Source of the DNA: Elusimicrobiota bacterium
GTDB taxonomy: Bacteria > Elusimicrobiota > Elusimicrobia > Elusimicrobiales > UBA9959
Reading direction: 5' to 3'
DNA length: 64,000 nt
Assembly: GCA_009773155.1 (NCBI GenBank)
Contig: WOVA01000005.1
Span: 1 to 64,000, forward strand
Shown here: one piece after another, positions 9,928 through 47,107 of the stretch
Layout of the letters: every line of letters starts with the position of its first letter
Position numbering within the stretch: the first letter of the stretch is position 1
Notes under the pieces: generated by a model
Seen by the model: only the letters and a program-made list of their open reading frames with translations
Database searches by the model: none
Told to the model about the DNA's origin: nothing
Translations under genes and position numbers: made by a program

Positions 9928-9933
9928 TCTCCG

Positions 9934-18232: not shown

Positions 18233-18260
18233 GCACCCCGCCGCGGGGGTGCTGTATTTT
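18233..18260 (+). terminator. Terminator-like hairpin within the leader (possible attenuator)
   Basis: GCACCCC (18233-18239) pairs with GGGGTGC (18246-18252) across a 6-nt loop, followed by TGTATTTTT. It lies only about 13 nt after the predicted start site of the strong promoter. It may end the upstream pilin operon, attenuate the downstream operon, or release a very short RNA. An A-run before the stem makes it potentially two-way. Confidence 0.6.
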
Positions 18261-18346
18261 TGAGCGGACATCGGACATGGTTTATCCAATGCCCGCGCAG
18301 GTGCCGCATCGAGAGCTGTGCTCGTCAGGCGGCCAATGGGGGATTT

Positions 18347-19370: not shown

Positions 19371-19583
19371 ATGAATAAAAGCGAGAAAAAAGAGCTAAAG
19401 GAACTGGCGCTCTCCATGGCGTTTCGTTCGGATATGGATAAAGCGGCCAGGGCTCGCTCAAGCCGGTCAGAGCGGGAGATCCCTCTGGATGAATTTGTCA
19501 GTTTCCTCAACGCCTACAACGGTTTTGTCAATCATCAACCCAGGCAGTTCCGGAAAATTGAAGGCGGAAAATGGCGGGCATAG
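19371..19583 (+). CDS. Small protein paired with the nucleotidyltransferase
   Basis: 70 residues: MNKSEKKELKELALSMAF, a basic middle, then EIPLDEFVSFLNAYNGFVNH and a basic C-terminus. I do not recognise a named family. It follows the nucleotidyltransferase by 16 bp and overlaps the giant gene start by 13 bp, so it is part of the same transcription unit and could couple translation of the giant gene. An antitoxin-like role is possible but unproven. Confidence 0.62.
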   Translation: MNKSEKKELKELALSMAFRSDMDKAARARSSRSEREIPLDEFVSFLNAYNGFVNHQPRQFRKIEGGKWRA

Positions 19584-22500
19584 TGGGACAGGGAATCAGG
19601 GAAGGGGGAGGGCGATTTACATCGCCCGCTGCAGTTATTTTTCTATTTTTATCCTTTATTCTGTATCCTTTAACTTTTCTTCACGCCGAGACGCGCATAA
19701 AAACGGTGGAGTATAACTTCGGCGGCTATTACAGCGCCACCGACATCGCTTCCGGCGCCACCCGGCAGATCTCCGCCCGGCGGGTTAAGCTGCCGGAGAA
19801 CGGCAAGACCATCCGCAGCGCCTGGCTGGAATTCGAGGGGCTGGCCGTCTCCGCCGCCGATATCAGCGCCCTGTACCTCTATTTTGACGCGGCTTCCACC
19901 GCCACCACCGCCCGCCTTACCACCGGCATATACACCGACCATACCGGCGAATCCATACGGCTTTTCGCCAGGGCGGACGTTACCGCCGCCGTGAGCGGCC
20001 AGCTGGCGAACCTGGCCGCCGGAGTTGATTTCGCCGCCGCGGTGCGCATCACCGGGCCCGCCTCCAACATGCACACGGCGAAGCTCTATATCACTTACGA
20101 GTACGACGACCAGTCGCCTGTGCAGGTGAAAACGGTGCGCTTCCCCCTGTATTCGGACTACGCCGCTCTCATAGCGGCTTTTACCACGCAGCAGGCGGCC
20201 GGTACTATACCGATGCAGTACCTGGCCGGCGTGGCCGACACCACCGGCTTCGCTTTGCAGCAGCAATGGTTTGAAATACGCGCCTACAGGCAGTCAGCGG
20301 CCTCCACCACCGACGGTTCTATTCGTCTGAACATAGGCGGCGGAACTAATGAACAGATTATGAACCTGGACGGGAGCCTGATTGATACTTACGACTTCCG
20401 CTACCTGTCCTCCACCACCGTGGTGCCGGGCTTCTCCACCGGCACCCTGCAGACGGTGAACCTGATCACCACGCAGAACCCGCTGAATCTGCTTTCCGGC
20501 GAGGTGGTGCTGACCTATGAGTTCTCCCCGGCCTCGCCGGCAAAGACGCAGACGGTGCGGCAGTACCTCGGCCAGGCCGAACTCGCCGCGGCCAACTCGG
20601 CGCTGTCCGCGCCGGTCCGGCTGAGGGAGGAAGGGATAACCCTCAGGCGGGTCTATGCCAGGATATTCGGCAGCTTTGACTCGGCCACCGCGGACGCGCT
20701 GCCGGTGGATTCCTCCATAGGCGCCAGCCTGGTAGCGCAGCGAAGTTACAGCATCAGGTCGCAGGCACTCCAAATCTCGGGCTACCAGTTCTTCCACGAT
20801 ATGACCGCCGCCATAGGCGGCTGGACCAACGGGGAACTGGCCCGCTCCACGGTGACGGCCGCCTCCAATGCGGGCGGCGCCACCGGCGCGCATGGCGCCG
20901 AGCTGATACTGACCTACGACTATACCAATGACGCCGCCCATACTTCACATTATCTGGTCTTCGGCGGAAACACTACCAGCACCACCAAGCCCTACGGCTA
21001 TACCGCGCCGCTGTACTATCCGGAGACGGCCGGCAGTTCTAAAACGGTCACAGGAGCGTACCTGGCGGCCGACCTGCTGAACAATACCGCTACCCAGGAC
21101 TTCAGCACTACCGTAAATTTCAACGGGAACTCTCCCCTTACCGTGAACCATCGTACCGTAGGCGAGGCCAACCTGGTGCGGCAGTTCTACCAGAACCTGC
21201 CGCAGGTCTCCACCCTGCCGGCTGCCGTCGTCTTTAATTACACGCTCAGCCCCACTGACGGTTCGTTGGGCGGCCAGGCGGCGATCTCCTACCTTTATGT
21301 GCCGCCGCCCAAGCTGGTTGTTTCGCTGACTCAGCGGGCTAATGGTTCAACGCTCGTCACAGGTTCCTATACCAATGCCAGGGAGATAGCGCTGGAAGGT
21401 GTCGTTTCCAGTTCTATGAGCGCGGATAACCTGGCCTTGGTACTGGAAATAAAGCCGTCAGCCTCCGCCTTTGACGGCCTGAACCTGACCACCGGGACTT
21501 TCAGCGGCTATTCCGGCACGCCGCTGACCGTCAGTTTAAGTTCTTCCGGCCTGACTTCGGGTACGGTATATAAATGGCGGGCCCGCGCCGCCGGCGACGG
21601 CGGTCCCGGCGGCTGGACCGCTTTTACCGACCCGTCTTTCGCCGTGGACTATTCCAGTCCCCCCGCTCCGGCCATGGCCGCCATAAACCCGGCCCATAAC
21701 GCCAACCTGAACATAACGGCCTTCCCCTTAGCCTGGGAAGCCGTGGCCGATATAGACGGTTCCGGCCTGAAGAACTACGAGTTGCAGGTGGCCACCTCCG
21801 CCGACTATGCTACGCTGTCCTTCAGCTCCGCGCCGCTGACCGCTTCGGCGCAGATCTCCGGCCTGACGCAGAAATATTATTACTGGCGCGTCCGGGCGCT
21901 GGACAATGCCGGCAATACCGGCCTCTGGTCAGTTGAAAGGAATTTCCGGGTGGACCTTTCCACGCCCACGGCCGTGAGCAATATGGGTTCCGGCGACCAA
22001 AGCTGGCGCAAGGCCAATAACGGAGTTTACGACGTGGATTTCGCCGACCTGGGCGATTCGCTGATAAAGCAGGTGGAGGTCAAAGTTACATCCGGCGCGG
22101 CGCAGACCGGCACGATCTTCTCAGACTGGACGCCGGCGTTGACCGCTGTGAACGCCGTCTCTTATTCCGCCGATTGGCCGCTGCCGGCCGGAGTATGGGA
22201 CCTTATGCAGAGCTGGACCACCAATTTTGTGTCGGTGCGGGTTACGGACTATTCCTCCAATACCTACACTTTGGCCGACGCCTTCAGGGTTTTTAAGGAC
22301 ACCGTGGCGCCGACTTTCGTCAATAGCGAGGCAGGCGGCGATAATACCTGGCGCAAGACGGGCCGCAGCTACAATGTAGACTTCGCCGACACATATTCTA
22401 AATTGGCCGGCGCTAAATACGAGGCCTGGACCGGCGCGGGGAAGACCGGTACGCAGAAAAAAGCCCTGACGGCCATCCCCGGAGTTTCAGGGGCTTCCTA

Positions 22501-25500
22501 CGACACCGACTGGGGCGTGGACTTCGCCGCGCTGGAGGACAGCGCGACCAACTATGTTTCCATAGAACTCTATGACGTGGCCGGCAATACGGCCACCATC
22601 ACCGACGCCTTCTACATTAAAAAGGACACCACGCCGCCGTCCAATGTCAACGGCGAGGCCGGGGGGGATAATACCTGGCGCAAGGCGGGCCGGAATTATA
22701 ATGTGGACTTCGCCGACGCGGGCTCGGGGCTGAACGGCGCCAAATACGCGGCGCGCACCGGGCCGAATTACACCGGCTCGCTCAAGATCGCTTCCACCAC
22801 GATAGCGGGGGTAAGCGGGGGTTCGTTCAATACCGACTGGGGCGTGGACTTCGCCGCGCTGGAGGACAGCGCGACCAACTATGTTTCCATAGAACTCTAT
22901 GACGTGGCGGGCAATACGGCGACCATCACCGACGCTTTCTACATTAAAAAGGACACCACGCCGCCGTCCAATGTCAACGGCGAGGCCGGGGGGGATAATA
23001 CCTGGCGCAAGGCGGCCAAGGCCGGCGGTTATAACGTGGACTTCGCCGACGGCGGCTCTCTGCTGGCCGGGGCGGCCTATGAGGCCTGGACCGGCGCGGG
23101 GAAGACCGGTGCGCAGAAAAAAGCCCTAACGGCCATCCCGGGGGTTTCAGGGGCTTCCTACGACGCCGACTGGGGCGTGGACTTCGCCGCGCTGGCCGAC
23201 GAGAGCACGAACTATCTCTCGGTGGAAGTTTACGACGTGGCCGGGAACACCTCCACCATCACCGACGCTTTCAGGGTCAGAAAAGACACCACGTCCCCGC
23301 GAATAACGGATCTTCAGACCGGCGACGATGTCTGGCGCAACTCGCCCGGAACCGCTTATAATGTGGATTTCAACGATCCTATCCTGTTAGAGCATGCGCA
23401 ATATGCCATCTGGTCGGCCCAGGGCAGGACCGGGACCCTGCGCAAAGACTGGACCTTCATAACCGGCTCGCCCATAAACGCGGCCTCATACACGACGGAC
23501 TGGCCGGTGGATTTCTCCGCTCTGGCGGAGGGGCAGACCACCAACTATGTTTCGGTGCGGGCCTGGGACGTGGCCGGCAGCACCGCCGTCCTTGACGACG
23601 TGTTCTACGTACAGAAAGACGTCACCCTGCCGGCGATAACCGACAACCAGGCCGGCGACGATACCTGGCGCAGGTCTTCCGGCACGGTTTATAATGTGGA
23701 CTTCGCGGACGCGGGCGGCTCGCTCTTGCAGAAGGTTCAGGTTAAGATTACAACAGGTTCAGCGCAGACCGGAACCCTGATAACCGACTGGGCCGACATC
23801 ATAACCGGCATTAATTCCGGCTCTTATACCGCCGACTGGCCCCTGACCTCCGACCTCTGGTCACTGCTGCCGGGCGGCCGCTCATATGTCTCCGTGCGAG
23901 CTTACGATTATGCGGGGAACAGCCAATCGCAAACCGATGTCTTTTACGTTCAGAAAGACACGCAGGCCCCGACGATGACCGACAACCAAAGCGGCGACGA
24001 TGCCTGGCGCAAGGACGCTGCAACGCTTTACAATGTGGATTTCGCAGACGCGGGCGGCTCTCTGCTGGCGAAGTTCCAGGTGCGCGCTTCCACTAGTAGC
24101 GGCGCGGCCGGGCCGTTCAGCCCCGACTGGACCGACAATCTCACCGGTATAAATTCCGCCTCCTATACCGCTGACTGGCCGCTGACCCCCGGTATCTGGG
24201 ACCTGCTCCGGAGCGGCACGAATTACGTTTCTGCGCGGGTTTTTGACAATGCCGGCTCTTCAACCGGGGTTACGGATGTTTTTTATGTCAAAAAGGACAC
24301 CTCAGCTCCGACGATAACAGACAACCAGGCCGGCGACGACACCTGGCGCAGGTTCGGCGGCACGGTCTATAATGTGGACTTCGCCGATCCAGGCGCGGGA
24401 CTTTCCGGGGCGAAGTATGAGGCCTGGACCGGAACCGGCAGGACCGGGACGCGGCTGATATCCCCGACGGCCATAACAGGGGTTTCCGGCGCCTCATTCA
24501 CCAATGACTGGTCCGTGGATTTTACGCTGCTGGCGCAGGGCACGAACTATATTTCAGTGGAGGCTTATGACGCGCTGGCCTCCACGGCCTCGGTTGCCGA
24601 TGTCTTTTATGTCAGGAAAGACAATGCCGCCCCGGTTATAACCGACAACCAGGCCGGCGATCTGACCTGGCGCAATGCCGCCGGGACGGTTTACAATGTT
24701 GATTTTGCGGACCTGAATTCGGGGCTCACCACCGCGCAGTACAAAATTACAACAGGGGTCGGACTAACCGGCGCGCTCAGAAAAGACTGGACCGACATCG
24801 TTTCATCGGTGAACGGTATCCCTTCATATCAGACAGACTGGCAGATAGATTTTAATTCCCTCGTAAGCGGAGATACGAACTATATTTCTGTAAGGGCCTA
24901 TGACCTCGCCGGCAATTTAGCGCAGGTGAATGACGTATTCTTCGTCCTGAAGGATACAGTCGCGCCGACAATCGCAAATAATGCCCCGGCGGCTTATGGG
25001 CCCTATGCGCTTGATCCGGGCAGTGTTCTGGACGTGGATTTTTTTGATACCGGCGGTTCAAGACTGAATAATGTCCAGTACAGCGTTTCTTCAGGGCCGG
25101 CTCAGACAGGTACCATCCTCAAGGATTGGACAAATATCGCCTTAAACATCGGCGCCACATATTACACCCAGAACTGGGGAGTTGATTTCTCGGCTTTGGT
25201 CAAAGAACCGGCCACGAATTATGTCTCTGTCCGGGCTTTTGATCATGCCGGCTCGTCCAGCGTTACAATAGACGCTTTTAAGATCTTCCGTTCTTCTTCC
25301 AACGCGCCCGAGGTTTTTGATTATCAAAGCGGTGATGATGTCTGGAGAAATTCATCTGGCACGGTTTACAATGTGGATTTCTCGTCAAATTCGGATTATG
25401 CCCTAAGCTGGTTTGAGGCGCAGGCCTGGTCCCAGACAGGCCAGTTGGGGGATCTGCTCGTTAACTGGACGACTGTACAGACAAATCTTAACGTGGCTCT

Positions 25501-28500
25501 GTATACCACCGACTGGGCTCTGCCGCAGACATTTTTCAACCAGATGAGGGAGGGAATAAATTATATTTCGCTCAGGGTTTACGATTCCTCCGTGCCGGTG
25601 GCGAATATAAGCTCAAGGCAGGAGGTTTTTTATGTCAAAAAAGACACTTCTCCGCCCTCGGTACCGGCTCTTCTGGCCCCCGCCGATAATGCCGCTATAA
25701 AATACGCGAATGTGAGTTTTGACTGGGGTGATTCAAACGGCCTGGAGTCGGGAACTTCAAATTATGAGCTGCTGGTCGCGACCTCCTCCGATTTTACAAC
25801 GATAACAGCAAGTTCAGGCCCGGTTATAAGCCAGGCTTCAATACCGGGACTGGCTGAAAATCCTTATTACTGGCGCGTCAGGGCAAAAGACAATGCCGGC
25901 AATTTTTCCGTTTATTCATCAACAAGATTTTTCAGGATTGACCTAAGCACGCCGACCATTAATAACCTGCAGGGCAACGCCACCCATTATCTGACGGCGA
26001 ACACCGGGCTCTATAACGTCGATTTCGCCGACTCCGGCGGCTCGCTGCTGGACAAGGCTCAGGTCAGGCTGACTTCGGGCCCCGCCCAGACCGGCACGCT
26101 GCTGGCGGACTGGACCGACGCCGTGACCGGGATCAACGCCCTTTCCTATACAGCCGACTGGGGCCTGCCCGCCTCGGTCTGGAACGCGCTGCCTTCCGGC
26201 CCCACAGGCTATGTCTCGGTGAAGGTCTTTGACCGGGCCGGCAATTATCTGGTCCAGAGCGACGTCTTCACGGTCTGGAAGGACACGGCGCCGCCTTACG
26301 CCGTAGACAACCAGCCTGGCGACGATGTCTGGCGCGGCGCGGATCCGGGCGCGATATATGACGTGGATTTCTACGACCTGGAGTCGCTGCTGACCACGGC
26401 CCAATACCGCCTGTATTCCGGCGCGGGCCAGACCGGCATACTGCGCAAGGACTGGACCAACATCGTTTCCCTGCCCGGCGGAACCAGCCAATATTTGCTT
26501 AACTGGGGCGTTGATTTCGCCGCCGCGGCGGAAGGTTTCAACTATGCCAGCGTCAGGCTTTTTGACAAGGCCGGGCTGTCCACCACAACGGCGGACCTGT
26601 TCTATGTGAAAAAAGACACCACGCCGCCCTCTATAACCGACAACCAAAGCGGCGACGCGGTCTGGCGCGGCGCCCCAGGCACGGCCTATAACGTGGATTT
26701 CGCGGACCTGGCCTCCGGGCTTACCACGGTGCAGTACAAGGTGACTACGGAAGCCGCCGAGGCCGGTACTCTGGTGAAAGACTGGACTTTGATAGTTCCG
26801 AACCTGAACGGGCAGAATTCCTATACTACGGACTGGACTCTGGATTTTGCCGCGCTCCTGGAGAGCGTCACAAACTATATTTCGGTGAGGGCTTATGATG
26901 GATTGGGCCGTGGGACAACGGTGCAGGATGTTTTCTATGTCAGGAAAGACGTTACGCTGCCGGCCATTACGGACAATCAAAGCGGCGACGATGTCTGGCG
27001 TAATGCCGATACGGCCTCCTATGCCGTGAGTTTCGCCGACGCCGGCGGCTCGCTGCTGGACAGGGCGCAGGTGAAGATAACCTCCGGCCCAGCCCAGTCG
27101 GGGACGCTGGTCTCGGATTGGACCGACCGGCTGACAGGCATAAACGCCGCCTCCTATACCGCGCCGTGGCAGCTCGGCTCCGCGCTCTGGAATCTGCTGC
27201 CCGAAGGGCAGAGTTATGTGTCGGTGCGCGTCTACGACGGGGCTGCCAATGTGAGTTCGCTCACGGACGCTTTCTATGTAAGGAAGGATACCAGCGCGCC
27301 TTCCATAACCGACAATCAGGCCGGCGACGACGCCTGGCGCGCCGCCAATACCGGCTCCTACAATGTGGATTTCGCCGACACAGGCGGCTCATTGCTGCAG
27401 AAAGTGCAGGTTAAGATAACCACAGGCGCGGCGCAGACAGGGACGCTGATTACCGACTGGGCCGATAATCTCACCGGTATAAATTCCGCCTCCTATACCT
27501 CCGACTGGCCGCTGGCTACAGGTTACTGGGACCTGCTGCAGTCGGGCACAAATTATGTTTCGGTGCGGGTTTTTGACAATGCGGGCTCTTCAACAACGCT
27601 GACCGACGCTTTCTATGTGCGCAAGGACACGCAGGCCCCGAGTATAACCGATGGCCAGAGCGGCGACAGCGTCTGGCGTAATACGAACTCCGGTCTTTAT
27701 AATGTGGATTTCGCCGACGCCGGCGGCTCGCTGCTCTCTAAATTCCAGGTCAGGGCGTCCACAAACACCGGCGGGGCCGCGCCGTATGTGTTTGACTGGG
27801 CCGATAATCTCACCGGCATGAATTCCGCCTCTTATACTGCCGACTGGCCGCTGCTTGCCGCTTACTGGTCGCTGCTGTTACCCGGCACAAACTACATTTC
27901 CGTGCGCGCATACGATAATGCCGGCTCTGCTGCCGCCCTGGCCGACGCTTTCTATGTTTTGAAGGACACGCAGAATCCGTCCGGTTTTGCCGTCTCGCCG
28001 GACTACGCCGGAACGCTGAATTTTAATGTCGCCTATTCAACTTCGGACGCGGGGCCCTCCGGTGTGGATTATGTCAGGCTGTATTACACCATGAACACGG
28101 CCGCGCCCTATACCTGGACGCAGTTCGGGACCACTTTCAATTCCAGCCCCATAGCCTTCACCGCGCCCTCGGCCGGCACGGCGGGCTTCAGGATAGTCGC
28201 CTATGACCGGGCCGGCAATACTGATGAAGCGGCCCCGCCGGCCGCCGAAACCGCGCCGGAGGATTCCACGGTCATAGACCTAAGCGCCCCGGCCATAACC
28301 GACAACCAAAGCGGCGACGATACCTGGCGTAATTCGGCCGGGACAGTCTACAATGTTGATTTCTCGGCCCCAGGCGCCTCCCCGCTGGACACGGCGCAGT
28401 ACAAGGCGACTGCCGGACCCGGCCAGACAGGGGATGTCCTGAAAGACTGGGCCACTATAGCCGCCAATATAAACTCTGCCAATTACACGATAGACTGGCC

Positions 28501-40500: not shown

Positions 40501-43500
40501 AATGAAAGACACCACCACGCCGACGATAATAGATAATCAGTCCGGGGACGATATCTGGCGCTCTGCTTCCGGCACACCGTATAATGTTGATTTCGCCGAT
40601 TACGGCTCAAGGCTTTCAAGCGCGGCTTACGCCGCTTATACCGGTCCAAACAAGACGGGAAGCGCCGTAATCGTTTCTTCGCGGATTTTCACTTCCACCG
40701 GCGCGCTCACTTATACAAATGACTGGCCGGCGGATTTCAGCAATCTTGTGCAGGGCTTCAATTATATTTCAATAACAGCCTGGGACCTTGCCGGCAACAC
40801 CTCGCAATACCTGGACGCTTTTTACATCAAAAAAGACACCGCGCCCCCCGTTATAACCGACCTGCAGACCGGCGCCACCACCTGGTACCGGCTGAATCCC
40901 GGCCCTGTTTTCAACGTGGATTTCGCGGACGCCGGTATAGGGCTTTCCAGCGCCGCTTATGAGGCCTGGACCGGCGCGGGCAAAACAGGGACGAATGTTA
41001 TAGTCTCCTCGCAGATATTCAGCGGCGCCCCGCGGGCTTCCTATACCGCCGACTGGGGACTGACTGACGCGGCTTTCACGCTGCTGGCCGCGGGGACCAA
41101 CTACATAAGCGTCACGGCCTGGGACGCCCTGAACTATTCCTCAACCTCCGTTGACGTGTTCTACATATTAAAAGACACCGTGCCGCCCTCGGCCATATCC
41201 TCGCTTTCCGCCGTCACGCCGTCAGCCGCCGCCGATGAAGGGAAGCTTAATGTCTACTGGAACGCTCCCGGCGACGACGGGCTGACCGGCTCGGCCAGCT
41301 ACTACATGATACGCTATAATACCGGCGCCATCGACGACGCCAATTTCAACTCCGTGTCGGTATTCGTCTCCACGCTGGTTCCGAAAATTTCCGGTACCGG
41401 CGAAGGCGTTATTATAACCGGTCTCACCGCGTCCGTCACGTATTACGCCGCGGTCAAGGCAGTGGACAAAGCCGGCAATATCGGCGCATTGTCTAATATG
41501 ACCTCGTCTTATGCCGGACTGGACCTGACGCCGCCGGGAGCGGTCTCCGATCTCTCCGGGCTGCAGGGCGATTTCCAGGGTCAGATAAAGCTTTATTGGA
41601 CCGCGCCGGGCGATGGCGCGTCCGGCGATCCCAATATCGGCACGGCCACCAGCTATACAGTGCGTTATGCCACTTTCCCTGTGACCGAATCTAATTTCAG
41701 CGCGCCGGAAGTTTCCACTTATACCCAGACCTGGGTGCCGCTGGTTTATGGTTCGGCCGAGGCCAGGGTTATGGAAGGACTTAGCCCCGGAACCAGCTAT
41801 TCCATAGCCCTGAAAGCTGTGGACGAGGCCGGCAATATAGGCCCGATATCCAATGTAATAGTGGGCACCGCCGCTCCAGCCGGGGCCGCCGCCGGTATGC
41901 TGGTTTATGGCGACACGGCTTCCTCCTCACTTAAATATCAGACCTGGGCCCCGCCCAACTGGAGCGCCGAGGCCGACAGCCTTATAACCGGCTCCGTAAT
42001 ACGCTGGTCGGTTCTTAAATCCGTGCCGCTGGTGGCCAATCAAAAACTGGCCGGTCTGCTGTATTCCGACAATTCAATGAAAGTCCTGAGGTGGAACGGC
42101 GGAGCTTCCACCTGGTCGGATATAACGCCCTCTCCCGCGCCCACGCCCGGCGGCTCTCTCACACGCCGGTTTGATCTGGCCGCCGAAAACGCCAGCGGCA
42201 GGATGATGGTCGCCTATTACAATGGCGCACTCGGTGCGATTACTTACGCGGTCTATTCCGCCACAGCCTCGGCCTGGGCGGTTAACCCGGTTTCGCTGCC
42301 GCTGGCCTCTCTGACAGGCAGCGTCAACTGGGTGCGCCTTAAGGCGATGCCCGGCACCAACAGAATACTGCTTACTGTCCTGGACGCCAATTCCGATATT
42401 TCAGCCGCTGTCTGGAACGGTTCGGCGTGGATAGACAATGTCAATCTTACGCTCACGGCCTCCATAGCCACAAGGGAAAGTTTTGACGCGGCCTGGGAGA
42501 CTTTGACCGGCGACGCTTTGGCGCTGTGGGGCGAGGGAACCAATACCAGTTACCGTAAATGGTATTCCACAGGGACCTGGGCCGACGCCGCTGCGGCCGG
42601 CCCGGCCATAGCCGCCGCGGCCGGCGCCAACTGGATACGGCTCTGTTCGGACCCGATTTCCAACCGGATAGGCTTCACCTCACTGGACGGAGATATTGAC
42701 TGGAATGTTTCGGTCTGGCGGCCGGCCGGTACTGAGGGCTGGTCCGGTCTGCCCGCCGAAGATACGGCCATGAGCGGTACCGCCTACAGGATGACCGACT
42801 GCGCCTGGGAGTCCAAATCCGGCAAGCTGCTGATCGCGGCTATTGATGACCTTGGAACCACCGACAACCGGTTCGACTGGATAACCTGGTCGGCCGGGAC
42901 CTGGAACCCGGCCAGCCCGTCGGTGGCCGGGGCCAACGGTAATACCGTTTTCACCGGCAGTATAACCTGGACATCGCTGATACCTGATCCGAACACCAAT
43001 AATATAACTTTCCTGGGCGTGGACACAGCCAATGATGTCAGGAGCACGGTCTGGAACGGCACGGCCTGGGCGGCCTCGGACGCTTCGTCCAATAAGTTGC
43101 ACGAGCAGGAGGGGACGGACCATAACTATGAGTTTGCCGCCGCCGATTTTGACCGCCATGACAATGTGCCGCCTACCGTTACGGACAACCAGGCCGGCGA
43201 TGATAACTGGCGCAATGCCAGCGCAACCTACGATGTGGACGCCACCGATTCCGGCGGTTCGCGACTGGCCCGTATACAGACCAAACTGCATACGGCCACG
43301 GGATTTGGCGGGACACTTATACAGGACTGGACCGACCAGGTGACGGGCATAAACCTGGATTCCTACACCACCAATTGGCCGCTGACAGCTGGTACATTCA
43401 ACCTGCTGCCGCAGGGCTGGTCATACGTGTCAGTGCGGGCGCTGGATAATGTGGGCAATATCTCCGTTGCCATAGTGGACGCTTTCTATGTTAAAAAAGA

Positions 43501-46500
43501 CACCACGGCCCCTACGATAATCAATAATCTTGCCGCGGGCTTTGACCAGACCTGGCGAAAATCCGACGCCGGGGCCATATATAATGTTGATTTCGCCGAC
43601 TCGGGCGGCGCGCAGATCTCGTCCATCACTTATTCGGCCTGGACCGGGGCGGCCGGGACCGGGACGAATTCCATAGCCAATGCCATAATTTCATCCGGTA
43701 CAAGTGTGGGGAATTCATATACCGCCGACTGGGGCGTGAACTTTGGCCTGCTGGCCCACGGCACCAATTATATCACCGTGCGCGTCTGGGATTGGGCTGC
43801 CTCAAGTTCCACGCTGGCCGACGCCTTCAAGGTGCTCAAGGATACGCAAGTCCCGTCTGATATCACCGCGCTTGCGGCTTCCCCGGGCCCTGTCAGGGGC
43901 TCGGTAAAGCTGGATTGGCCGGCGCCCGGCGACGACGGAACGGCAAACAATAATACGCAGGGCGGGTACATCATAAAGTCTGCCACTTACAATATAACAG
44001 CGGCGCTGTTTGATTCGGCCAGTACTTACGCGCAGACCTGGGTCCCGCAGAACGCCGGGATCACGGAGTCCAGGGTACTCTATGGGTTTGAGGTCGGCAA
44101 GACCCACTATTTTGCCGTGAAGACATTCGACAAGGCGGGCAGTACTTCAGCCATCTCCAATGTGCCGTCCAGCCTGCCGCAGACCGCCAATGTCTATATC
44201 AACGAGGTCTATCCCACCGGCGCGGCCGCGGCCGACGACTGGGTGGAGTTCTATAACAATACCTCCAGCACTTTCAGCCTGGCCGGCTGGACGCTGGTCT
44301 ATAACCAGGGCACAATAGACCTGCCCAGCAATGAAGTGACGGTGTGGACCGGCGCCAGTGTGGACAGGAGCAGCGTGAACGCCCATTTCACGGCCCCTGT
44401 GTCGGCCGATCTTAACGGCGCGCAGAGCTACCATGTGATACTAAAGGACAATAACGGAAACATCATAGACAGGGTGCAGTGGCCGGTCTTATCTTCCGGC
44501 CAGTCCTTCGCCAGGATAGCGGACGGTAACGCCGATTTCTTTGAGGTGGACCCGACGCCGACCAGAAACTACGCCAATGCCATAACCACCCACCCGGTCA
44601 AGCTCAATGAAATCGCCTACGGGACGCTTTCTTCGGAGTTCGTCGAGCTTTACAATACCGGCCAATCCACGCCCGCGCTCTCCGGCTATTCGCTCAGGAA
44701 TTTCAATGCGGTAAGATTCCGGTTTACGCGTAATATATACGCCGGGAACTATTCCCTGCTGGCATTCTCTTCCGTCAGCGATGATCTGCTGTCCTGGCAG
44801 TCCGCCTTCGGTACCGCTGGGCTCGCCGCCGCCGGAGATTACCTGGCGCTGGAAAACCCAGCCGGCCAGACTGTGGACAGAGTAACCTGGCAGAGCGGGA
44901 CCAGTTACAGCCTGTATAATTACAAAGCCGGGGTTGTAGCCGCCGCCGATGTCGCCCCTGCCGGCGCCGCCAATTCCATAGGCCGGCGGCCTTCCGAAGG
45001 AGCGGATACAGGCTCCGATGCCAATGATTTCGCCGCCATGTCCGCCGCCACGCCGATGTCCAGAAATAACGGCGCCGGCTCCGGCGCGGTTAATACGCTT
45101 TCATATCCGGCGGGCAACCAGATACTGCCGCGGAAATTCCCGCTGCGGCTGACGCTCGGCGCCGATTCCTCCGGCGGGACCGCGGATAACCTGGTATTTA
45201 TCCGTACCGGCGGCTCCGCCGATAATTATTCGCCCCATATATACAGGCTGGGCGATATCGGGTTTAATCTGGCCGCCCTCTCCGCGCAGTCCACGGTGCA
45301 GATAGGAGTTTCGTTTAACGACCAGGACGGCCGTCCCCTCGTCCATAACGCCGTTTACAGGCTTATCCTGAACACCGACACCGGCACGGCCTCGGCCCCG
45401 CAGATAACGCTGGCCACGGTAACCTATGACTCCAGCATCCACACTACGTACGCGCATGACAGTTCACCGCGAAGGATCAATGAAAGCGTCAGGGACGATA
45501 TTATCAGGTTCACGGTTTCAAATAACAGTCCTTCGGGCTACAATTCAGTTGAAATAGCCACGGTCGCCGTTAAATTGCTGGACTCTAATCTGGGTGCGCT
45601 GACCACTCTCCAGGCGCAGAATATGTTCAGCGCCATTATGATCGCCAGAGATTCCGTTTCGGGCTCCACAGGCATATACGAGTCAGGCATAGACATAGGC
45701 ACCATAGCCTATGTGGCCAGCGGCTCAATTTCCCTGGACGCGAATGGCGTTCAGCTGATCCCGGTCCCTTCTCCGGGCAGCGCGAACTCTTCAATAACCG
45801 CTTTTTCCACAGGGACATTCTTTATAGTGGCGCAGATACAGCCGAACGGTGCGGCCCAGACCCCGAACACTTTCAGGATAGCCTTCCAACCGCAGTCCGA
45901 CATGGTCGTGCAGGACGGGCCCAGCGATCAGCCGCAGGACACCGGCGCTTCTTCCCAGGTGCAGACGGCCTCTTCCACGATAATCACCCCGGCAAAACCG
46001 CCGGCCGGAACAAGCTGGCCTTATGATGCCGGGGTTGCGGCCGGTGTTGAAACCGTCATCGGCGGTTACAGCGGTCCCGCTTTGAGCACTTCGGCTTATT
46101 ATTCCATGGGAATAGACGGGCGCGTGAGGGCGTTTAATTACAGCGGGGGATTGAAATGGACATTTGAAACTTCGCCGCTGTCTCCGATCCGGTCCGCGCC
46201 GTGGGTTGAAGAGGAGGGCGGCGGGGTTTTTATATATTTCGCCGACGATAACGGCGACGTCTATAAAATCAGGGACAATAATACGGGCGTCGCCCAGACC
46301 TGGAAGAGAAGCCTTGGCGCGCAGATACGCTCGGGTATTGTAACGTCCGGAACCAGGGTTTATTTCGGGGCGTCGAACAACAGGACCTGGTGCGTGAATA
46401 AAGCCGACGGCCTGGACTGCGCCGGCTGGCTTTTCGACGCCGGAATAAACGCGGCCGTATCCGGCACGCTTTCCCTGGACGATTATACGCCGGGGGTGAA

Positions 46501-47107
46501 TTCCGGCTGGGTGGGACTTGAGAACGGCAAGGTGGTCAGGATCAAAACAGCGGACGGCACGGTCCAGGCGGACGGCTTTACCACCGGCGCCGCCGTCAGG
46601 TCCTCCCCGTTCGTGGACGCGGGCTGGGGCGGCGCGAATAATAATCTCTATGCGACCTCCACCGACGGCAAACTCTATGCAAGAACGGCGGCCAACCTGA
46701 ACACGCTGCCGGCGAACTGGGCCGATTTTACCACCAGTCCGCTTAGCCCCATTCATTCGTCTCCATGGATAGCCACCATGCTGGGTAAGAAATACGCGTT
46801 TTTCGGCGACGATAGCGGAACTCTTTATAAAGTTGACGCTTCCAGCGGCGTCTTTATCTGGAAATACCAGGCCCAGGGCGCCATAAGAACGATGCCGGTA
46901 GTATTCGGCGGCTTCGTTTATTTCGGAACGCTTGACGGCTATATGTACGCGCTCGACGCCAATACCGGGGGTTTAAGGAACGGCTGGCCGGTTTCCCTTG
47001 GCGGCGCGGTGAAGGGTGAACTGATGCTGGAAATAATGACTGCCGGACAGGATGTCCTGCTAGTCGGCGCCAGCGACGGAAAAACCTACATGCTGGCGAT
47101 AGAGTAA
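19571..47107 (+). CDS. Giant secreted repeat protein, 9178 residues
   Basis: One uninterrupted 27.5-kb frame. A signal peptide (about 1-41, end FLHAETR) precedes four related beta modules (about 45-575; ends LYITYEYD, VVLTYEF, LILTYDY) and FN3-like domains (580-790). From about 800 to 8090 I count about 48 copies of a roughly 110-residue repeat: DNQAGDDxWR, then YNVDFAD, SLL, QTGTL, DWT, NYVSVR, DAFYVxKD. FN3 and propeller-like sets interrupt it at about 3460-4110 and 7200-7860. Two lamin-tail-like domains (about 8207-8450) and a PQQ-type propeller (about 8814-9178) end it. A surface adhesin, predation factor or sheath is possible. No sorting domain is seen at its C-terminus. The start overlaps the preceding small gene. 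Confidence 0.9.
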   Translation: MAGIVGQGIREGGGRFTSPAAVIFLFLSFILYPLTFLHAETRIKTVEYNFGGYYSATDIASGATRQISARRVKLPENGKTIRSAWLEFEGLAVSAADISALYLYFDAASTATTARLTTGIYTDHTGESIRLFARADVTAAVSGQLANLAAGVDFAAAVRITGPASNMHTAKLYITYEYDDQSPVQVKTVRFPLYSDYAALIAAFTTQQAAGTIPMQYLAGVADTTGFALQQQWFEIRAYRQSAASTTDGSIRLNIGGGTNEQIMNLDGSLIDTYDFRYLSSTTVVPGFSTGTLQTVNLITTQNPLNLLSGEVVLTYEFSPASPAKTQTVRQYLGQAELAAANSALSAPVRLREEGITLRRVYARIFGSFDSATADALPVDSSIGASLVAQRSYSIRSQALQISGYQFFHDMTAAIGGWTNGELARSTVTAASNAGGATGAHGAELILTYDYTNDAAHTSHYLVFGGNTTSTTKPYGYTAPLYYPETAGSSKTVTGAYLAADLLNNTATQDFSTTVNFNGNSPLTVNHRTVGEANLVRQFYQNLPQVSTLPAAVVFNYTLSPTDGSLGGQAAISYLYVPPPKLVVSLTQRANGSTLVTGSYTNAREIALEGVVSSSMSADNLALVLEIKPSASAFDGLNLTTGTFSGYSGTPLTVSLSSSGLTSGTVYKWRARAAGDGGPGGWTAFTDPSFAVDYSSPPAPAMAAINPAHNANLNITAFPLAWEAVADIDGSGLKNYELQVATSADYATLSFSSAPLTASAQISGLTQKYYYWRVRALDNAGNTGLWSVERNFRVDLSTPTAVSNMGSGDQSWRKANNGVYDVDFADLGDSLIKQVEVKVTSGAAQTGTIFSDWTPALTAVNAVSYSADWPLPAGVWDLMQSWTTNFVSVRVTDYSSNTYTLADAFRVFKDTVAPTFVNSEAGGDNTWRKTGRSYNVDFADTYSKLAGAKYEAWTGAGKTGTQKKALTAIPGVSGASYDTDWGVDFAALEDSATNYVSIELYDVAGNTATITDAFYIKKDTTPPSNVNGEAGGDNTWRKAGRNYNVDFADAGSGLNGAKYAARTGPNYTGSLKIASTTIAGVSGGSFNTDWGVDFAALEDSATNYVSIELYDVAGNTATITDAFYIKKDTTPPSNVNGEAGGDNTWRKAAKAGGYNVDFADGGSLLAGAAYEAWTGAGKTGAQKKALTAIPGVSGASYDADWGVDFAALADESTNYLSVEVYDVAGNTSTITDAFRVRKDTTSPRITDLQTGDDVWRNSPGTAYNVDFNDPILLEHAQYAIWSAQGRTGTLRKDWTFITGSPINAASYTTDWPVDFSALAEGQTTNYVSVRAWDVAGSTAVLDDVFYVQKDVTLPAITDNQAGDDTWRRSSGTVYNVDFADAGGSLLQKVQVKITTGSAQTGTLITDWADIITGINSGSYTADWPLTSDLWSLLPGGRSYVSVRAYDYAGNSQSQTDVFYVQKDTQAPTMTDNQSGDDAWRKDAATLYNVDFADAGGSLLAKFQVRASTSSGAAGPFSPDWTDNLTGINSASYTADWPLTPGIWDLLRSGTNYVSARVFDNAGSSTGVTDVFYVKKDTSAPTITDNQAGDDTWRRFGGTVYNVDFADPGAGLSGAKYEAWTGTGRTGTRLISPTAITGVSGASFTNDWSVDFTLLAQGTNYISVEAYDALASTASVADVFYVRKDNAAPVITDNQAGDLTWRNAAGTVYNVDFADLNSGLTTAQYKITTGVGLTGALRKDWTDIVSSVNGIPSYQTDWQIDFNSLVSGDTNYISVRAYDLAGNLAQVNDVFFVLKDTVAPTIANNAPAAYGPYALDPGSVLDVDFFDTGGSRLNNVQYSVSSGPAQTGTILKDWTNIALNIGATYYTQNWGVDFSALVKEPATNYVSVRAFDHAGSSSVTIDAFKIFRSSSNAPEVFDYQSGDDVWRNSSGTVYNVDFSSNSDYALSWFEAQAWSQTGQLGDLLVNWTTVQTNLNVALYTTDWALPQTFFNQMREGINYISLRVYDSSVPVANISSRQEVFYVKKDTSPPSVPALLAPADNAAIKYANVSFDWGDSNGLESGTSNYELLVATSSDFTTITASSGPVISQASIPGLAENPYYWRVRAKDNAGNFSVYSSTRFFRIDLSTPTINNLQGNATHYLTANTGLYNVDFADSGGSLLDKAQVRLTSGPAQTGTLLADWTDAVTGINALSYTADWGLPASVWNALPSGPTGYVSVKVFDRAGNYLVQSDVFTVWKDTAPPYAVDNQPGDDVWRGADPGAIYDVDFYDLESLLTTAQYRLYSGAGQTGILRKDWTNIVSLPGGTSQYLLNWGVDFAAAAEGFNYASVRLFDKAGLSTTTADLFYVKKDTTPPSITDNQSGDAVWRGAPGTAYNVDFADLASGLTTVQYKVTTEAAEAGTLVKDWTLIVPNLNGQNSYTTDWTLDFAALLESVTNYISVRAYDGLGRGTTVQDVFYVRKDVTLPAITDNQSGDDVWRNADTASYAVSFADAGGSLLDRAQVKITSGPAQSGTLVSDWTDRLTGINAASYTAPWQLGSALWNLLPEGQSYVSVRVYDGAANVSSLTDAFYVRKDTSAPSITDNQAGDDAWRAANTGSYNVDFADTGGSLLQKVQVKITTGAAQTGTLITDWADNLTGINSASYTSDWPLATGYWDLLQSGTNYVSVRVFDNAGSSTTLTDAFYVRKDTQAPSITDGQSGDSVWRNTNSGLYNVDFADAGGSLLSKFQVRASTNTGGAAPYVFDWADNLTGMNSASYTADWPLLAAYWSLLLPGTNYISVRAYDNAGSAAALADAFYVLKDTQNPSGFAVSPDYAGTLNFNVAYSTSDAGPSGVDYVRLYYTMNTAAPYTWTQFGTTFNSSPIAFTAPSAGTAGFRIVAYDRAGNTDEAAPPAAETAPEDSTVIDLSAPAITDNQSGDDTWRNSAGTVYNVDFSAPGASPLDTAQYKATAGPGQTGDVLKDWATIAANINSANYTIDWPVDFAALKSSFNYVSARVWTMAGTTTTANDVFYVKKDTSVPSIIDNQAGDNVWRRAAGTLYNVDFQDTLSLLANVQYSASSVAASASGNIVPWTNIAAGISAENYTADWAVDFAALGSGPTNYISARAYDLAGNISVSTDVFHVLKDTVAPTIIVNQPGDSVWRAANTGVYNVDFADAGGSLLSAFQVRASSGPGLTGTLAFDWSNLVTGINSASYTGDWSLTADHWSLLLPGTNYISVRVWDNAGTTVTLNDAFYVLKDVAGPVITDNQPGDDVWRSAADALYNVDFNDPLSGLSALYAKVHSELNQGGILLADWALVTALSGNSHTADWPLTSSLFTAMAEGVNHVSLRVHDAVNNQATLVDAFYVKKDITGPTITDNQAGDAVWRSTYGALYNVDFADSLSLLSRFQIRASSGPNYTGTQAMGWTDVVTGINSASYTADWPLAAGHWALLLPGTNYISVRAFDNAAASTTLADVFYVLKDTVAPAAIANLTAGTGSEGEITLSWTASGDDGSSGTASAYIVKVSSIVAIDAGNFDAAPAYAQNWQPAAAGLTENGSLTGLQADAIYYVAIKVRDKAGNLSTISNLPSARTGADITPPGAITTLAAATGAFEGQVDLSWTAVGDNGVAVGTATAYLVRYRTDQAITTLALWDGAQVYTQSWQPLGAGEAEVKTISGLVPGTVYYWAIRAVDEVNNTGGLSNSPSAPAQTAGAVGGIMQFGVSTSYDVPYIRKWSPPDFGSAQTGVKTNAAGTSQIRHAVMKASGLRNEKLSGLLSSDGVLQIQRYNGTTDIWTNEWSVTDIGATNSIYRGFDIAYEQNSGRAMVLYNGATAGQLKYNIWNGSSWSGAVTLTSGTANASLWVRLEPKPNSDELMAVVLKATSLEIYAMRWTSTTWKDDNQIVASAGSSAKQNYDVAWEKTLGRCLVTYNGGTLGRADTKIWDGAAWSAYTSNYFAFQGGNGAAQWIRLISDPTPNSNKIGAASVDSAADWNASIWDNGWTAQATENTSVRNVANQACTIDAAWESQSGKLVVVSASGGSAVRYSSWTVSGGWGSTLAAAPTVTGWSSTVNGVRLESDPNTNSLMMTAASINNDLRSATWGGSIFSLYASAHTTAISANAYMPFDFALHRHDTSPPTVTDNQAGDDTWRSANTGLYDVDANDTGGSGLKEIQIKVHTGAGQTGTLILDWSVQVSTAGVNSYTANWALAASTWTALREGFNYVSVRAMDGALNVSALPAIDAFYVKKDTTPPSVPSLLSPADNAAVPTQSPVFDWSDSSDGTSGVAGYALQVSTSDDFTALSFSSSPSVSQASASGLASGKYFWRARALDAAGNYSIYSSTFAVFVDTAPPVITDNQNGDDAWRNSSGTVYNVDFADSGGSRLQSVRYAVYSSTGRTGTELVSFAAGLIADNIASDLYTTDWPLSQANWDLLANGTNYVSVRAADRAGNTATLDDAFYIRKDITAPTITDNQPGDDVWRKDNSAVYNVDFADSGGSLLKQVEIKITTGTGQTGTVLLDWTPQLTGINSASYTPDWSLGASTFSLLQAGTNYVSVRVSDNAGSTTTLADVFYVRKDTAPPSAPSLVSPADGAFSNLAGPLFDWTDAADALSGLSGYEIYIGTDAFFSVFTASAAPAASQYQAAGLGSAAWYWKARARDNAGNYSVYSSTYAVVIDTAPPTVVDNQPGDDVWRNSPGTVYNVDFADTGGSLLNTVEYSAWSAPGLGGTNLIPWANIASPPVNSSSYQLDWPVDFALLAGGTNYVSARASDRAQSTTTVLDVFYVRKDVTAPTITDNQAGDDVWRAANTGIYNVDFSDSGGSRLSKFQLKITTGAAQTGTVVLDWTDKVTAINSDSYTTDWGLTFDQWTLLNQGTSYISVKVFDGAQNQTALSDAFYVRKDTSAPTITDNQSGDDTWRAANTGTYNVDFADTGGSALAWFQVRVTTGALQTGTLIADWTTVISGINANTYTTDWALPAAVFDAMQSGLNYVSVRVYDNAGLTQNLTDVFYVKKSTIAPRVIDNQAGDDAWRNGPGTLYDVDFEDAGTSLLDTAQYKVTSGPGQSGSLLKDWTTIAAGINASAYTANWSVDFAALAENGTNYVSARVWDKAGATTTVSDVFYIRKDVTLPGITDNQAGDNTWRNTNSGLYNVDFADSGGSLLAKFQVRASTNTGAAGPFSPDWTDNVTLINLSSYQLDWPLTSGIWDLLRSGTNYISVRVFDNAGNVSSLTDAFYVRKDTSAPSVPALLSPADLAVRNTLTPLFDWADASDAVSGISGYEILVSTRDDASVIASSGAPTASQFTASLSLSATHYWAVRAKDQAGNYSAYTSTYAVLIDTIAPTITDNQPGEFSWRKTDGGAIYNIDFEDALSKLDTLQYSAWTAPGQTGANPIPWTNITNPPVNSSSYQLDWSVNFNLLAAGTNYISARAWDIAGTTRTLADAFTVLKDTFAPTITDNQAGDNIWRNSNSGVYDVDFGDLLSGLATAQYYISSGTLMTGTKVAGWTDIFTNLNQPSYTANWPLTAGDWGLLPEGTSYITVRVFDVLAQGATSYDVFYVRKDTTTPTVTDNQANIALAQTQSDVSAMNVDFFDTGGSLLNNAQYTAWAGPNFTTGEVIPWTNIASGISSAAYTTDWPVNFTALTNLATSYISVRAYDFAGSVMVSTDVFSVYKNASAPAIINNQTGDDAWRSANTGIYNVDFQSQSGQNLDKFQVRASTNTSGGPYNPDWTDVVVNIGAAGYTTDWALPAGVFTALAAGRNHISVRVFDLVPSSATLDNAFYVQKDTSAPTIIDNQPGDLVWRAAAGTVYNVDFLDSLSGLATVQYKVMSDAGQTGTLLKDWTNIAALTPGQAAYTADWAVDFAALSEAVTNYASVRAYDLLGQSAALNDVFIVLKDTTPPSVPALSSPADKALYSTSAVSFDWTDSTDLRSGTSGYALQVSTYADFQTVAYSSSPVVSSASFGSVADGIYYWRVRAADAASNYSAWTATRTFVVDVSSPIIINNQASPTPWYITDPGAVFDVDFRDLSSGLTSVQYRINSLPAGGGDLLKDWTVISHTPDGLALYDAAWGVDFAATRDGLNYVSVRAFDRVNLSSTAADAFIIRKDTSPPTITDNQAGDDVWRNAGGTLYNVDFADAGIGVSTAQYRITSLPTGAGTVLKDWTNIFTGQSYASYTTDWAVDFFALAETATNYVSVRAWDALGSSRAAADVFYILKDVTNPSIADNQPDTVWLNADPGAVFDVDFADLGGARLSKFQTKVTTGPTQTGTTVWDWTDRITAINATYYTLAWGLDFAAMPEGPNHVSVRVYDNAANSAAQTDVFAVRKDTTPPTITDNQPGDDTWRGANTGTYNVDFADTGGSLLQKFQVKASSGQNQSGTVFFDWTDLVLGINSASYTTDWALTAELWDLLPSGTNYISVRAFDNAGSSRTLSDVFYIRKDTQSVTITDNQAGDAAWRNAVGTLYDVDASANGSSLLDRLEVRTSTAPGNTGPFTADWTAAVSNINAGTYTADWSLPGSVFDSMLSAATNYVSVRVFNQAQNFAVLADAFYVKKDTVPAVITNNIPGGDQAWRNSSGTVYNVDFSDAGGSLLQKVQVKITTGSAQTGTLIADWADNLTGINSASYTDDWPLAAGYWDLLREGTNYVSLRVYDIAGNITAETDAFRVFKDTTAPSVTDNQAGDTVWRNSNSGVYNVDFADTGNSLLSKFQVRASTNTGTGGPFSPDWTDNITGINSASYTGDWQLATGVWDLLQSGTNYISVRVYDNAGNMTTFGSQPFYVLKDTTAPSFVNGVAGGDLNWRNSSGTLYNVDALDSGGSLLSAYQLKITTGAAQTGTVITDWADIAANIGASSYLSDWALTAGQWSLLQEGTSYVSVRAWDNAGSTGTLIDAFRIFKDTTPPSAVDNQAGEFDWRNTNTGLYNVDFADTGGSLLSKFQLRASTSTGGAAPFSPDWTDNIAGINAASYTADWALTAGIWNSLADSATNYISVRVFDYAGSSFTLTDAFNIMKDTTTPTIIDNQSGDDIWRSASGTPYNVDFADYGSRLSSAAYAAYTGPNKTGSAVIVSSRIFTSTGALTYTNDWPADFSNLVQGFNYISITAWDLAGNTSQYLDAFYIKKDTAPPVITDLQTGATTWYRLNPGPVFNVDFADAGIGLSSAAYEAWTGAGKTGTNVIVSSQIFSGAPRASYTADWGLTDAAFTLLAAGTNYISVTAWDALNYSSTSVDVFYILKDTVPPSAISSLSAVTPSAAADEGKLNVYWNAPGDDGLTGSASYYMIRYNTGAIDDANFNSVSVFVSTLVPKISGTGEGVIITGLTASVTYYAAVKAVDKAGNIGALSNMTSSYAGLDLTPPGAVSDLSGLQGDFQGQIKLYWTAPGDGASGDPNIGTATSYTVRYATFPVTESNFSAPEVSTYTQTWVPLVYGSAEARVMEGLSPGTSYSIALKAVDEAGNIGPISNVIVGTAAPAGAAAGMLVYGDTASSSLKYQTWAPPNWSAEADSLITGSVIRWSVLKSVPLVANQKLAGLLYSDNSMKVLRWNGGASTWSDITPSPAPTPGGSLTRRFDLAAENASGRMMVAYYNGALGAITYAVYSATASAWAVNPVSLPLASLTGSVNWVRLKAMPGTNRILLTVLDANSDISAAVWNGSAWIDNVNLTLTASIATRESFDAAWETLTGDALALWGEGTNTSYRKWYSTGTWADAAAAGPAIAAAAGANWIRLCSDPISNRIGFTSLDGDIDWNVSVWRPAGTEGWSGLPAEDTAMSGTAYRMTDCAWESKSGKLLIAAIDDLGTTDNRFDWITWSAGTWNPASPSVAGANGNTVFTGSITWTSLIPDPNTNNITFLGVDTANDVRSTVWNGTAWAASDASSNKLHEQEGTDHNYEFAAADFDRHDNVPPTVTDNQAGDDNWRNASATYDVDATDSGGSRLARIQTKLHTATGFGGTLIQDWTDQVTGINLDSYTTNWPLTAGTFNLLPQGWSYVSVRALDNVGNISVAIVDAFYVKKDTTAPTIINNLAAGFDQTWRKSDAGAIYNVDFADSGGAQISSITYSAWTGAAGTGTNSIANAIISSGTSVGNSYTADWGVNFGLLAHGTNYITVRVWDWAASSSTLADAFKVLKDTQVPSDITALAASPGPVRGSVKLDWPAPGDDGTANNNTQGGYIIKSATYNITAALFDSASTYAQTWVPQNAGITESRVLYGFEVGKTHYFAVKTFDKAGSTSAISNVPSSLPQTANVYINEVYPTGAAAADDWVEFYNNTSSTFSLAGWTLVYNQGTIDLPSNEVTVWTGASVDRSSVNAHFTAPVSADLNGAQSYHVILKDNNGNIIDRVQWPVLSSGQSFARIADGNADFFEVDPTPTRNYANAITTHPVKLNEIAYGTLSSEFVELYNTGQSTPALSGYSLRNFNAVRFRFTRNIYAGNYSLLAFSSVSDDLLSWQSAFGTAGLAAAGDYLALENPAGQTVDRVTWQSGTSYSLYNYKAGVVAAADVAPAGAANSIGRRPSEGADTGSDANDFAAMSAATPMSRNNGAGSGAVNTLSYPAGNQILPRKFPLRLTLGADSSGGTADNLVFIRTGGSADNYSPHIYRLGDIGFNLAALSAQSTVQIGVSFNDQDGRPLVHNAVYRLILNTDTGTASAPQITLATVTYDSSIHTTYAHDSSPRRINESVRDDIIRFTVSNNSPSGYNSVEIATVAVKLLDSNLGALTTLQAQNMFSAIMIARDSVSGSTGIYESGIDIGTIAYVASGSISLDANGVQLIPVPSPGSANSSITAFSTGTFFIVAQIQPNGAAQTPNTFRIAFQPQSDMVVQDGPSDQPQDTGASSQVQTASSTIITPAKPPAGTSWPYDAGVAAGVETVIGGYSGPALSTSAYYSMGIDGRVRAFNYSGGLKWTFETSPLSPIRSAPWVEEEGGGVFIYFADDNGDVYKIRDNNTGVAQTWKRSLGAQIRSGIVTSGTRVYFGASNNRTWCVNKADGLDCAGWLFDAGINAAVSGTLSLDDYTPGVNSGWVGLENGKVVRIKTADGTVQADGFTTGAAVRSSPFVDAGWGGANNNLYATSTDGKLYARTAANLNTLPANWADFTTSPLSPIHSSPWIATMLGKKYAFFGDDSGTLYKVDASSGVFIWKYQAQGAIRTMPVVFGGFVYFGTLDGYMYALDANTGGLRNGWPVSLGGAVKGELMLEIMTAGQDVLLVGASDGKTYMLAIE
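19653..19673 (+). repeat. Heptamer-related signal-peptide sequence, giant gene
   Basis: CCTTTAT at 19653-19659 and CCTTTAA at 19667-19673 encode part of SFILYPLTF in the signal peptide. The same heptamer is found in the signal peptides of the genes at 47819 and 50961. Confidence 0.5.
22502..23020 (+). repeat. Near-identical DNA repeats inside the giant gene, period 327 bp
   Basis: About 185 bp starting at 22505 recur almost unchanged at 22832 (shared start ACCGACTGGGGCGTGG), 327 bp (109 codons) apart. A block starting GAGGCCTGGACCGGCGCGGG near 22421 recurs near 23081. Such identity is far above that of other repeat units and points to recent unequal crossing over. Confidence 0.8.

Follow-up and report, generated by a model that had tools for sequence, protein, structure and literature searches.

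What a protein of more than nine thousand residues might do for an uncultured bacterium of the phylum Elusimicrobiota is the question raised by the locus described here. The window, that is, the whole stretch of 64,000 nucleotides analysed, contains one open reading frame of 9,178 aa with no internal stops (19571-47107, plus strand), whose product is referred to below as the giant. A sequence-only reading had described it as one very long secreted protein carrying about 48 divergent copies of a repeat that could be matched to no named family, together with FN3, propeller-like, and lamin-tail-like inserts and a C-terminal PQQ-type propeller. Huge proteins are common in Elusimicrobiota (PMC11573180), and giant Ig-repeat adhesins are likewise already known; the giant is a concrete, conserved example of an Elusimicrobiota huge protein whose anatomy can be interpreted. 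We consider it likely that it is a cell-surface adhesive stalk with an interchangeable shaft.

Architecture of the giant protein

A profile built from the giant's own repeat retrieved 48 strong copies of 105–174 bits each, and the next best match reached 2.5 bits, which leaves no doubt about the count; it falls exactly on the earlier estimate. The unit is ~113 residues long, and the copies are arranged in nine blocks of 11, 6, 5, 1, 2, 5, 5, 11, and 2 (Table 1). They are rightly called divergent, because their mean column identity is 52%. Among the 48 copies, W76 and F111 are invariant, and the nearly invariant columns include D3, P7, W19, D30, D33, Y72, Y92, D99, D109, and D116; seven aspartates are conserved in 41–47 of the copies, two of the seven being located at domain borders. 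The coverage of ~7,300 residues previously given for the repeat is correct for the span including inserts (aa 793-8091) but not for the copies themselves, which total 5,529 aa and fill about 5,400 net, since neighbours overlap by 2–3 residues. Every one of the 48 repeat copies in the 2.76 Mb genome sits in the giant gene alone.

The inserts comprise six FN3-like or Ig-like units of 96–101 aa and two cassettes of ~650 aa, each with two FN3 units and a propeller. By eye, a signal-peptide-like stretch opens the N-terminus; it is followed by a conserved region resembling several beta-rich units, and no Pfam match was obtained for aa ~40-620. In the C-terminal 1,087 aa, Pfam and NCBIfam assigned lamin tail domains together with a PQQ/BamB-type propeller. 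The FN3, lamin-tail-like, and C-terminal PQQ-type parts of the sequence-only reading were confirmed by Pfam matches, and its propeller-like inserts by structure prediction.

Table 1. Coordinates of the giant's parts and of its neighbours in the window
Feature	Position	Strand	Basis or remark
Rrf2-type regulator, upstream, kept at locus	18260-18775	+	
Giant N-terminal part, aa 1-792	19571-21946	+	Signal-peptide-like aa ~1-40, then conserved region, then FN3-like units
Ig-like repeats 1-11, aa 793-2025	21947-25645	+	Own profile
96-aa FN3-like insert (Ig_Rha78A_N)	25646-25933	+	Pfam and own profile
Ig-like repeats 12-17, aa 2122-2799	25934-27967	+	Own profile; repeats 15-17 (26942-27967) modelled
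101-aa insert between repeats 17 and 18	27968-28270	+	Equal length in relatives
Ig-like repeats 18-22, aa 2901-3459	28271-29947	+	Own profile
Cassette A, aa 3460-4105, two FN3 units then ~420-aa propeller	29948-31885	+	Pfam fn3, AF2, Foldseek; modelled stretch 30620-31894
Ig-like repeat 23, aa 4106-4223	31886-32239	+	Own profile
96-aa FN3-like insert	32240-32527	+	Own profile spacing
Ig-like repeats 24-25, aa 4320-4550	32528-33220	+	Own profile
96-aa FN3-like insert	33221-33508	+	Own profile spacing
Ig-like repeats 26-30, aa 4647-5210	33509-35200	+	Own profile
96-aa FN3-like insert	35201-35488	+	Own profile spacing
Ig-like repeats 31-35, aa 5307-5867	35489-37171	+	Own profile
96-aa FN3-like insert	37172-37459	+	Own profile spacing
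Ig-like repeats 36-46, aa 5964-7202	37460-41176	+	Own profile
Cassette B, aa 7203-7861, two FN3 units and second lectin-like propeller (41867-43153)	41177-43153	+	
Ig-like repeats 47-48, aa 7862-8091	43154-43843	+	Own profile
Conserved C-terminal module, aa 8092-9178	43844-47107	+	FN3, lamin tail domains (best 44180-44482), uncharacterised stretch, PQQ/BamB-type propeller (best 46634-47095); without sorting tail
REP-associated tyrosine transposase (Y1), between giant and tail-bearing partner gene	47154-47822	+	Low-GC stretch; absent here in relatives examined
Partner protein (1,035 aa) with signal peptide, PQQ propeller, and FN3 units, ending in a type IX-type C-terminal sorting tail (Por_Secre_tail)	47819-50926	+	Syntenic in relatives
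PorV/PorQ-family outer-membrane protein, 522 aa	50961-52529	+	156.9 bits, cut-off 90; syntenic

Conservation of the frame in relatives

Six other genomes were found to have frames, whole or almost so, of about 9,400–10,500 codons. Two other genera of the same family contain whole giants of 9,394, 9,565, and 9,430 aa with 49, 50, and 50 copies (G109, G143, and G149, respectively), which bears out the claim of one very long repeat protein; G169, from another family of the class, has 9,487 aa and 49 copies, and G324 and G325, from elsewhere in the phylum, have 10,482 and at least 10,173 aa, respectively, with 58 copies each. In G141, 44 and 7 copies are distributed across two adjacent frames (L077/L078, G141:C69). 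The giant of G112 is interrupted, probably by an inserted element (L115, G112:C40).

The giants of G109, G143, and G149 align with that of the window end to end at 58–59% identity over about 9,090 columns, and the identity to G149 is even along the length. Within the family, insert lengths agree to within a few residues (96, 101, about 645, 96, 95–96, 96, 95–96, and about 651–662), the tail measures 1,071–1,089 aa, and differences in copy number are confined to the first repeat blocks. Reciprocal best repeats between the giant and those of G149, G143, and G109 formed collinear chains of 29–32 of 33–35, compared with a mean of 9 and a maximum of 14 in 2,000 shuffles, while the chains for G169 and G324 were no longer than those of shuffles; beyond the family, single repeats could not be paired one to one. 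For pairs among G143, G141, and G149, dN was 0.18–0.21 and dS 0.83–1.0 (Nei-Gojobori; dS nearing saturation), with similar values in nearly every 1,000-residue bin, indicating uniform purifying selection. Because relatives align end to end, carry 49–50 copies in order, and are under uniform purifying selection, the frame is not broken by assembly errors, a possibility that the sequence-only reading had raised against itself. It is unusual for tandem repeats to keep a nearly constant number across genera, and the constancy seen here suggests that the reach of the protein is under selection.

Using nine close repeats as the query, the repeat was detected in 81 of 341 genomes of the phylum. Most of the loci bearing it are titled Elusimicrobia, Elusimicrobiales, or Endomicrobia, and a few have titles that read Omnitrophota, Firestonebacteria, Caldiserica, or simply 'bacterium'. 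In viral contigs, phages, and plasmids, no relative was detected, and a phage or plasmid origin of the repeat is therefore unsupported. In many of the family's genomes, the repeat was also observed as two-copy pairs within further large proteins (L081/L082 in G123 and L079/L080 in G130).

Predicted folds of the repeat and the propellers

Modelling of two to three adjacent repeats had been suggested with the sequence-only reading, and the AF2 model of three of them (repeats 15–17, aa 2458-2799, 60 rows) showed Ig-like sandwiches with a pLDDT of 96.9. The best solved match found by Foldseek was BIg50-52 of SiiE (2yn5/2yn3, E 3e-10, 15–18% identity), and other matches included macroglobulin/complement domains, the RTX adhesin tetra-tandemer 6xi3, and mastigoneme and S-layer proteins. 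TM-scores against the solved matches were low (about 0.3) because inter-domain angles presumably differ. When the 48 repeats were scanned one by one against Pfam, the best E-values were 0.0045 (DUF7743) and, for a Big family, 0.0085 (Big_3_3), and none was a clear family member or above a curated cut-off; a 4,810-residue segment of the giant taken whole passed the Big_3_3 cut-off (33.5 vs 27 bits). A sequence-profile search of the PDB with the repeat yielded nothing significant, and a search of the genome for the PKD domain (PF18911) was negative. The repeat is thus predicted to be an Ig-like sandwich nearest the BIg domains of SiiE, and no new fold. That it matches no named family remains true over the Pfam cut-off for copies scanned singly; the alternative of a known Big/cadherin-like domain turned out to be right at the level of fold and not at that of sequence family.

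The model of cassette A (21 rows) had a pLDDT of 92 and a pTM of 0.92 and showed an all-beta propeller-like fold. Its first 15 Foldseek matches were PLL/PHL/BP39L lectins (E 2e-12 to 7e-10; TM about 0.65–0.70 of the lectin), and later matches included AofleA and AAL-type fucose lectins. Sequence-profile comparison of the cassette with solved lectins and the PDB returned nothing significant. Based on the predicted fold, the giant's two propellers are putative glycan binders.

Conservation of the locus and exchange of the shaft

The gene order Rrf2, giant, 1,035-aa tail protein, PorV-family protein, HPF, and HprK is kept, with local insertions, in G143, G141, and G112 (where the giant is broken), and the giant, tail protein, and PorV also occur together in G149, G109, G169, and G325. 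The same order was found in G120, which belongs to the window's genus, with a different large protein in place of the giant. In G120 and in four genomes of another genus (G140, G139, G126, and G124), the locus protein is about 3,450–4,565 aa long (lengths partial except in G120) and the repeat profile finds nothing in it; FN3 domains make up the alternative shaft in G120, the only one of these proteins scanned. The C-terminal ~1,000 aa are common to both locus forms at 45–48% identity, and the alternative form has one low-similarity propeller cassette. The N-terminal part, which is 58–60% identical in G141, G143, G149, and G109, is confined to the Ig-repeat form and has no match in the form found in G120.

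In the HPF and HprK trees, the window grouped with its genus. In the trees of the C-terminal module, the tail protein, and PorV, G120 clustered with the other FN3 forms (support 96–100), pairing with G124 for the first two, and the AU test for the C-terminal module rejected a grouping of the window with G120 (p 2e-38). The trees show that the locus was replaced from one lineage to another, independently of its flanks. That the shaft is replaced while the base stays is the strongest indication of a spacer role for the repeats, and the exchange of the shaft at one locus suggests that a surface trait has been swapped between lineages. Compared with the window, the G120 loci (L113/L114) present a surface-protein locus swapped between species that share a genus, with downstream genes that follow the species tree.

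Several other features of the window were noted. A second Y1 transposase lies in a low-GC stretch at 6578-7561, and no inverted repeats stood out directly beside either of the window's two transposases. Small nucleotidyltransferase, AAA/DUF4143, and PIN genes are located near pilin-like genes (7732-8202, 9898-11076, 12600-13010, and 18776-19354); the nucleotidyltransferase at 18776-19354 sits between Rrf2 and the giant and has no match in the relatives' loci examined. An 871-aa prepilin-type protein (2145-4760) contains a carboxypeptidase-regulatory domain and a weak lamin tail domain, and its homologue is kept upstream of the giant locus in several relatives.

Possible links to type IX-like export

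Neither a type IX sorting tail nor an RTX family was matched in the giant (Pfam, NCBIfam), no membrane anchor was obvious, with no transmembrane stretch evident by eye past the signal peptide, and no member of the ABC exporter, HlyD, or TolC families was among the window proteins scanned. A sorting-tail gene followed by a shuttle gene, as seen downstream of the giant, is the arrangement of type B substrates in Flavobacterium (PMC12618676). Across the genome, seven of nine tail-like C-termini are encoded directly upstream of a PorV-family gene, and the PorV family gave 16 matches, with eight proteins above the cut-off. The genome has another giant frame, of 8,413 codons (G000 C50:10458-35696, minus strand; L144/L145), which lacks the repeat, ends in a type IX-type sorting tail, and is followed by a PorV-family gene.

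A SprA/Sov-like protein of 1,804 aa (L141:6414-11828, G000:C10) was detected at an E-value of 1.9e-31, with 108 bits against a cut-off of 200, and its gene adjoins LptF/LptG-family genes on contig C10. The SprA/Sov model had matches in 292 of 341 genomes of the phylum, 0 of them above the curated cut-off, which suggests a divergent type IX-like translocon across Elusimicrobiota. GldL and GldM had no match in the genome, and control genomes gave none either; matches to the PorU model were confined to its C-terminal tail region. The giant is probably displayed with the aid of a type IX-like route, as judged from synteny, and the type IX-like partners may serve in its export and anchoring. The type IX system has been assigned to the Fibrobacteres-Bacteroidetes-Chlorobi group (PMC11205867). 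It is conceivable, although we hold this only tentatively, that the mode of surface display is unlike that of SiiE and RTX adhesins: divergent type IX-like machinery, with a SprA-like translocon, a PorV-family shuttle, and a tail-bearing partner, may place a tail-less giant, with a base and an interchangeable shaft of near-fixed domain number, on the cell surface in a phylum outside those known for such a system. Through the connection to PorV-family and SprA-like proteins, type IX-like export in Elusimicrobiota becomes testable.

Proposed function and alternative explanations

As an adhesive stalk, the giant would leave the cytoplasm by Sec export through its signal peptide. The 48 Ig-like domains would form a rod of, by analogy, roughly 0.2 μm; SiiE sandwiches measure 30–35 Å and RTX ones are longer (PMC7493085). 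At 3–4.5 nm per domain, about 0.2–0.3 μm is more likely than the several hundred nanometres first proposed. Calcium at the conserved aspartates, in and between domains, would probably stiffen the rod, by analogy with SiiE and RTX extenders, and the FN3-like units at fixed positions would act as joints. The two PLL-like propellers, if their fold is a guide, may grip glycans of adjacent cells or polymers. The base is likely to be the C-terminal end, which carries the lamin tail domains and PQQ-type propeller, because this module is kept in both locus forms; synteny points to the sorting-tail PQQ-propeller protein and the PorV-family outer-membrane protein as the operon partners on which it would dock. 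The N-terminal end is the likely tip because it differs between the forms. The shaft would then be a replaceable spacer, with either ~48–50 Ig-like repeats or shorter FN3 domains on one base.

The giant could instead form a structural coat, an S-layer-like or matrix layer in which the repeats are structural and constitute no ligand-reaching arm. The HPI S-layer protein of D. radiodurans and Chlamydomonas mastigonemes are indeed among the fold matches of the repeat, and a nearly fixed repeat count would fit; however, the gene is patchy, with the repeat in 81 of 341 genomes and a different shaft in several close relatives, and lectin-like propellers suit binding better than a lattice, so we regard a coat as improbable. 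Somewhat less probable still is a predatory or polymer-degrading giant that binds and opens prey walls, as proposed for Omnitrophota. Proteins over 5,000 aa are enriched in Elusimicrobiota (PMC11573180), and the radiation's giant proteins have been suggested to act in wall degradation or as weapons on the surface (PMC12057145, citing a preprint), but Pfam and NCBIfam revealed no hydrolase, protease, helicase, or toxin family in the giant, and by eye it has no evident membrane-spanning stretch past the signal peptide.

The operon with sorting-tail and PorV-family proteins and the SprA-like protein in the genome would also be expected of a gliding adhesin travelling along the surface, like SprB in Flavobacterium. 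The giant itself lacks the tail, however, and no GldL or GldM was matched, although the same was true of the controls; we consider this very unlikely. An artefact of assembly or frame has next to no probability: the genome comprises 93 contigs, and the frame is split in two in G141 and interrupted in G112, but the six genomes with whole or nearly whole frames, the collinear giants of the family, and the purifying selection throughout speak against it. The adhesive stalk with an interchangeable shaft is the reading we prefer.

Comparison with known systems

In the literature searched, we found no description of this family of repeats or of its nearly constant copy number, nor of the PLL-like propellers embedded in the giant, the pair of exchangeable shafts, or the tail/PorV pairing. 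The locus resembles those of type IX substrates with cognate shuttles (SprB/SprF and RemA/PorV) in that a sorting-tail gene is followed by a PorV-family gene (PMC12618676), and differs in that the tail is on the giant's neighbour, the SprA match is under the cut-off, and no motor was found. The predicted fold of the giant's cassettes matches that of the Photorhabdus PLL/PHL lectins and of AAL-type fucose lectins, whereas the giant's cassette is 12–15% identical to them and about 420 residues long, compared with 340–360 residues. To Pfam Big_3_3, Big_13, and DUF7743, the giant's repeat is weakly similar, with single copies under the cut-off.

The RTX adhesin extenders of MhLap and MpIBP are tandem beta-sandwiches, as in the giant, with 6xi3 among the best matches, and calcium was present in the linkers of all four solved structures (PMC7493085). 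MpIBP (MpAFP) has roughly 120 identical copies (PMC4083281), whereas the giant's repeats show 52% mean column identity and a near-fixed number, and the giant is without an RTX export signal. SiiE of Salmonella enterica, a type I-secreted protein, has 53 BIg domains, in each of which five conserved acidic residues bind two Ca2+ (PMC5466336). Unlike SiiE, the giant has embedded propellers, lamin tail domains, a PQQ-type propeller, and an operon with type IX-type partners, with no RTX or type I parts seen, and its sequence does not appear to place it in the type I-secreted family of SiiE. In common with SiiE, it has about 50 Ig-like domains in tandem, predicted to form a rod, and each domain has several conserved acidic residues; a SiiE-like way of working is well supported.
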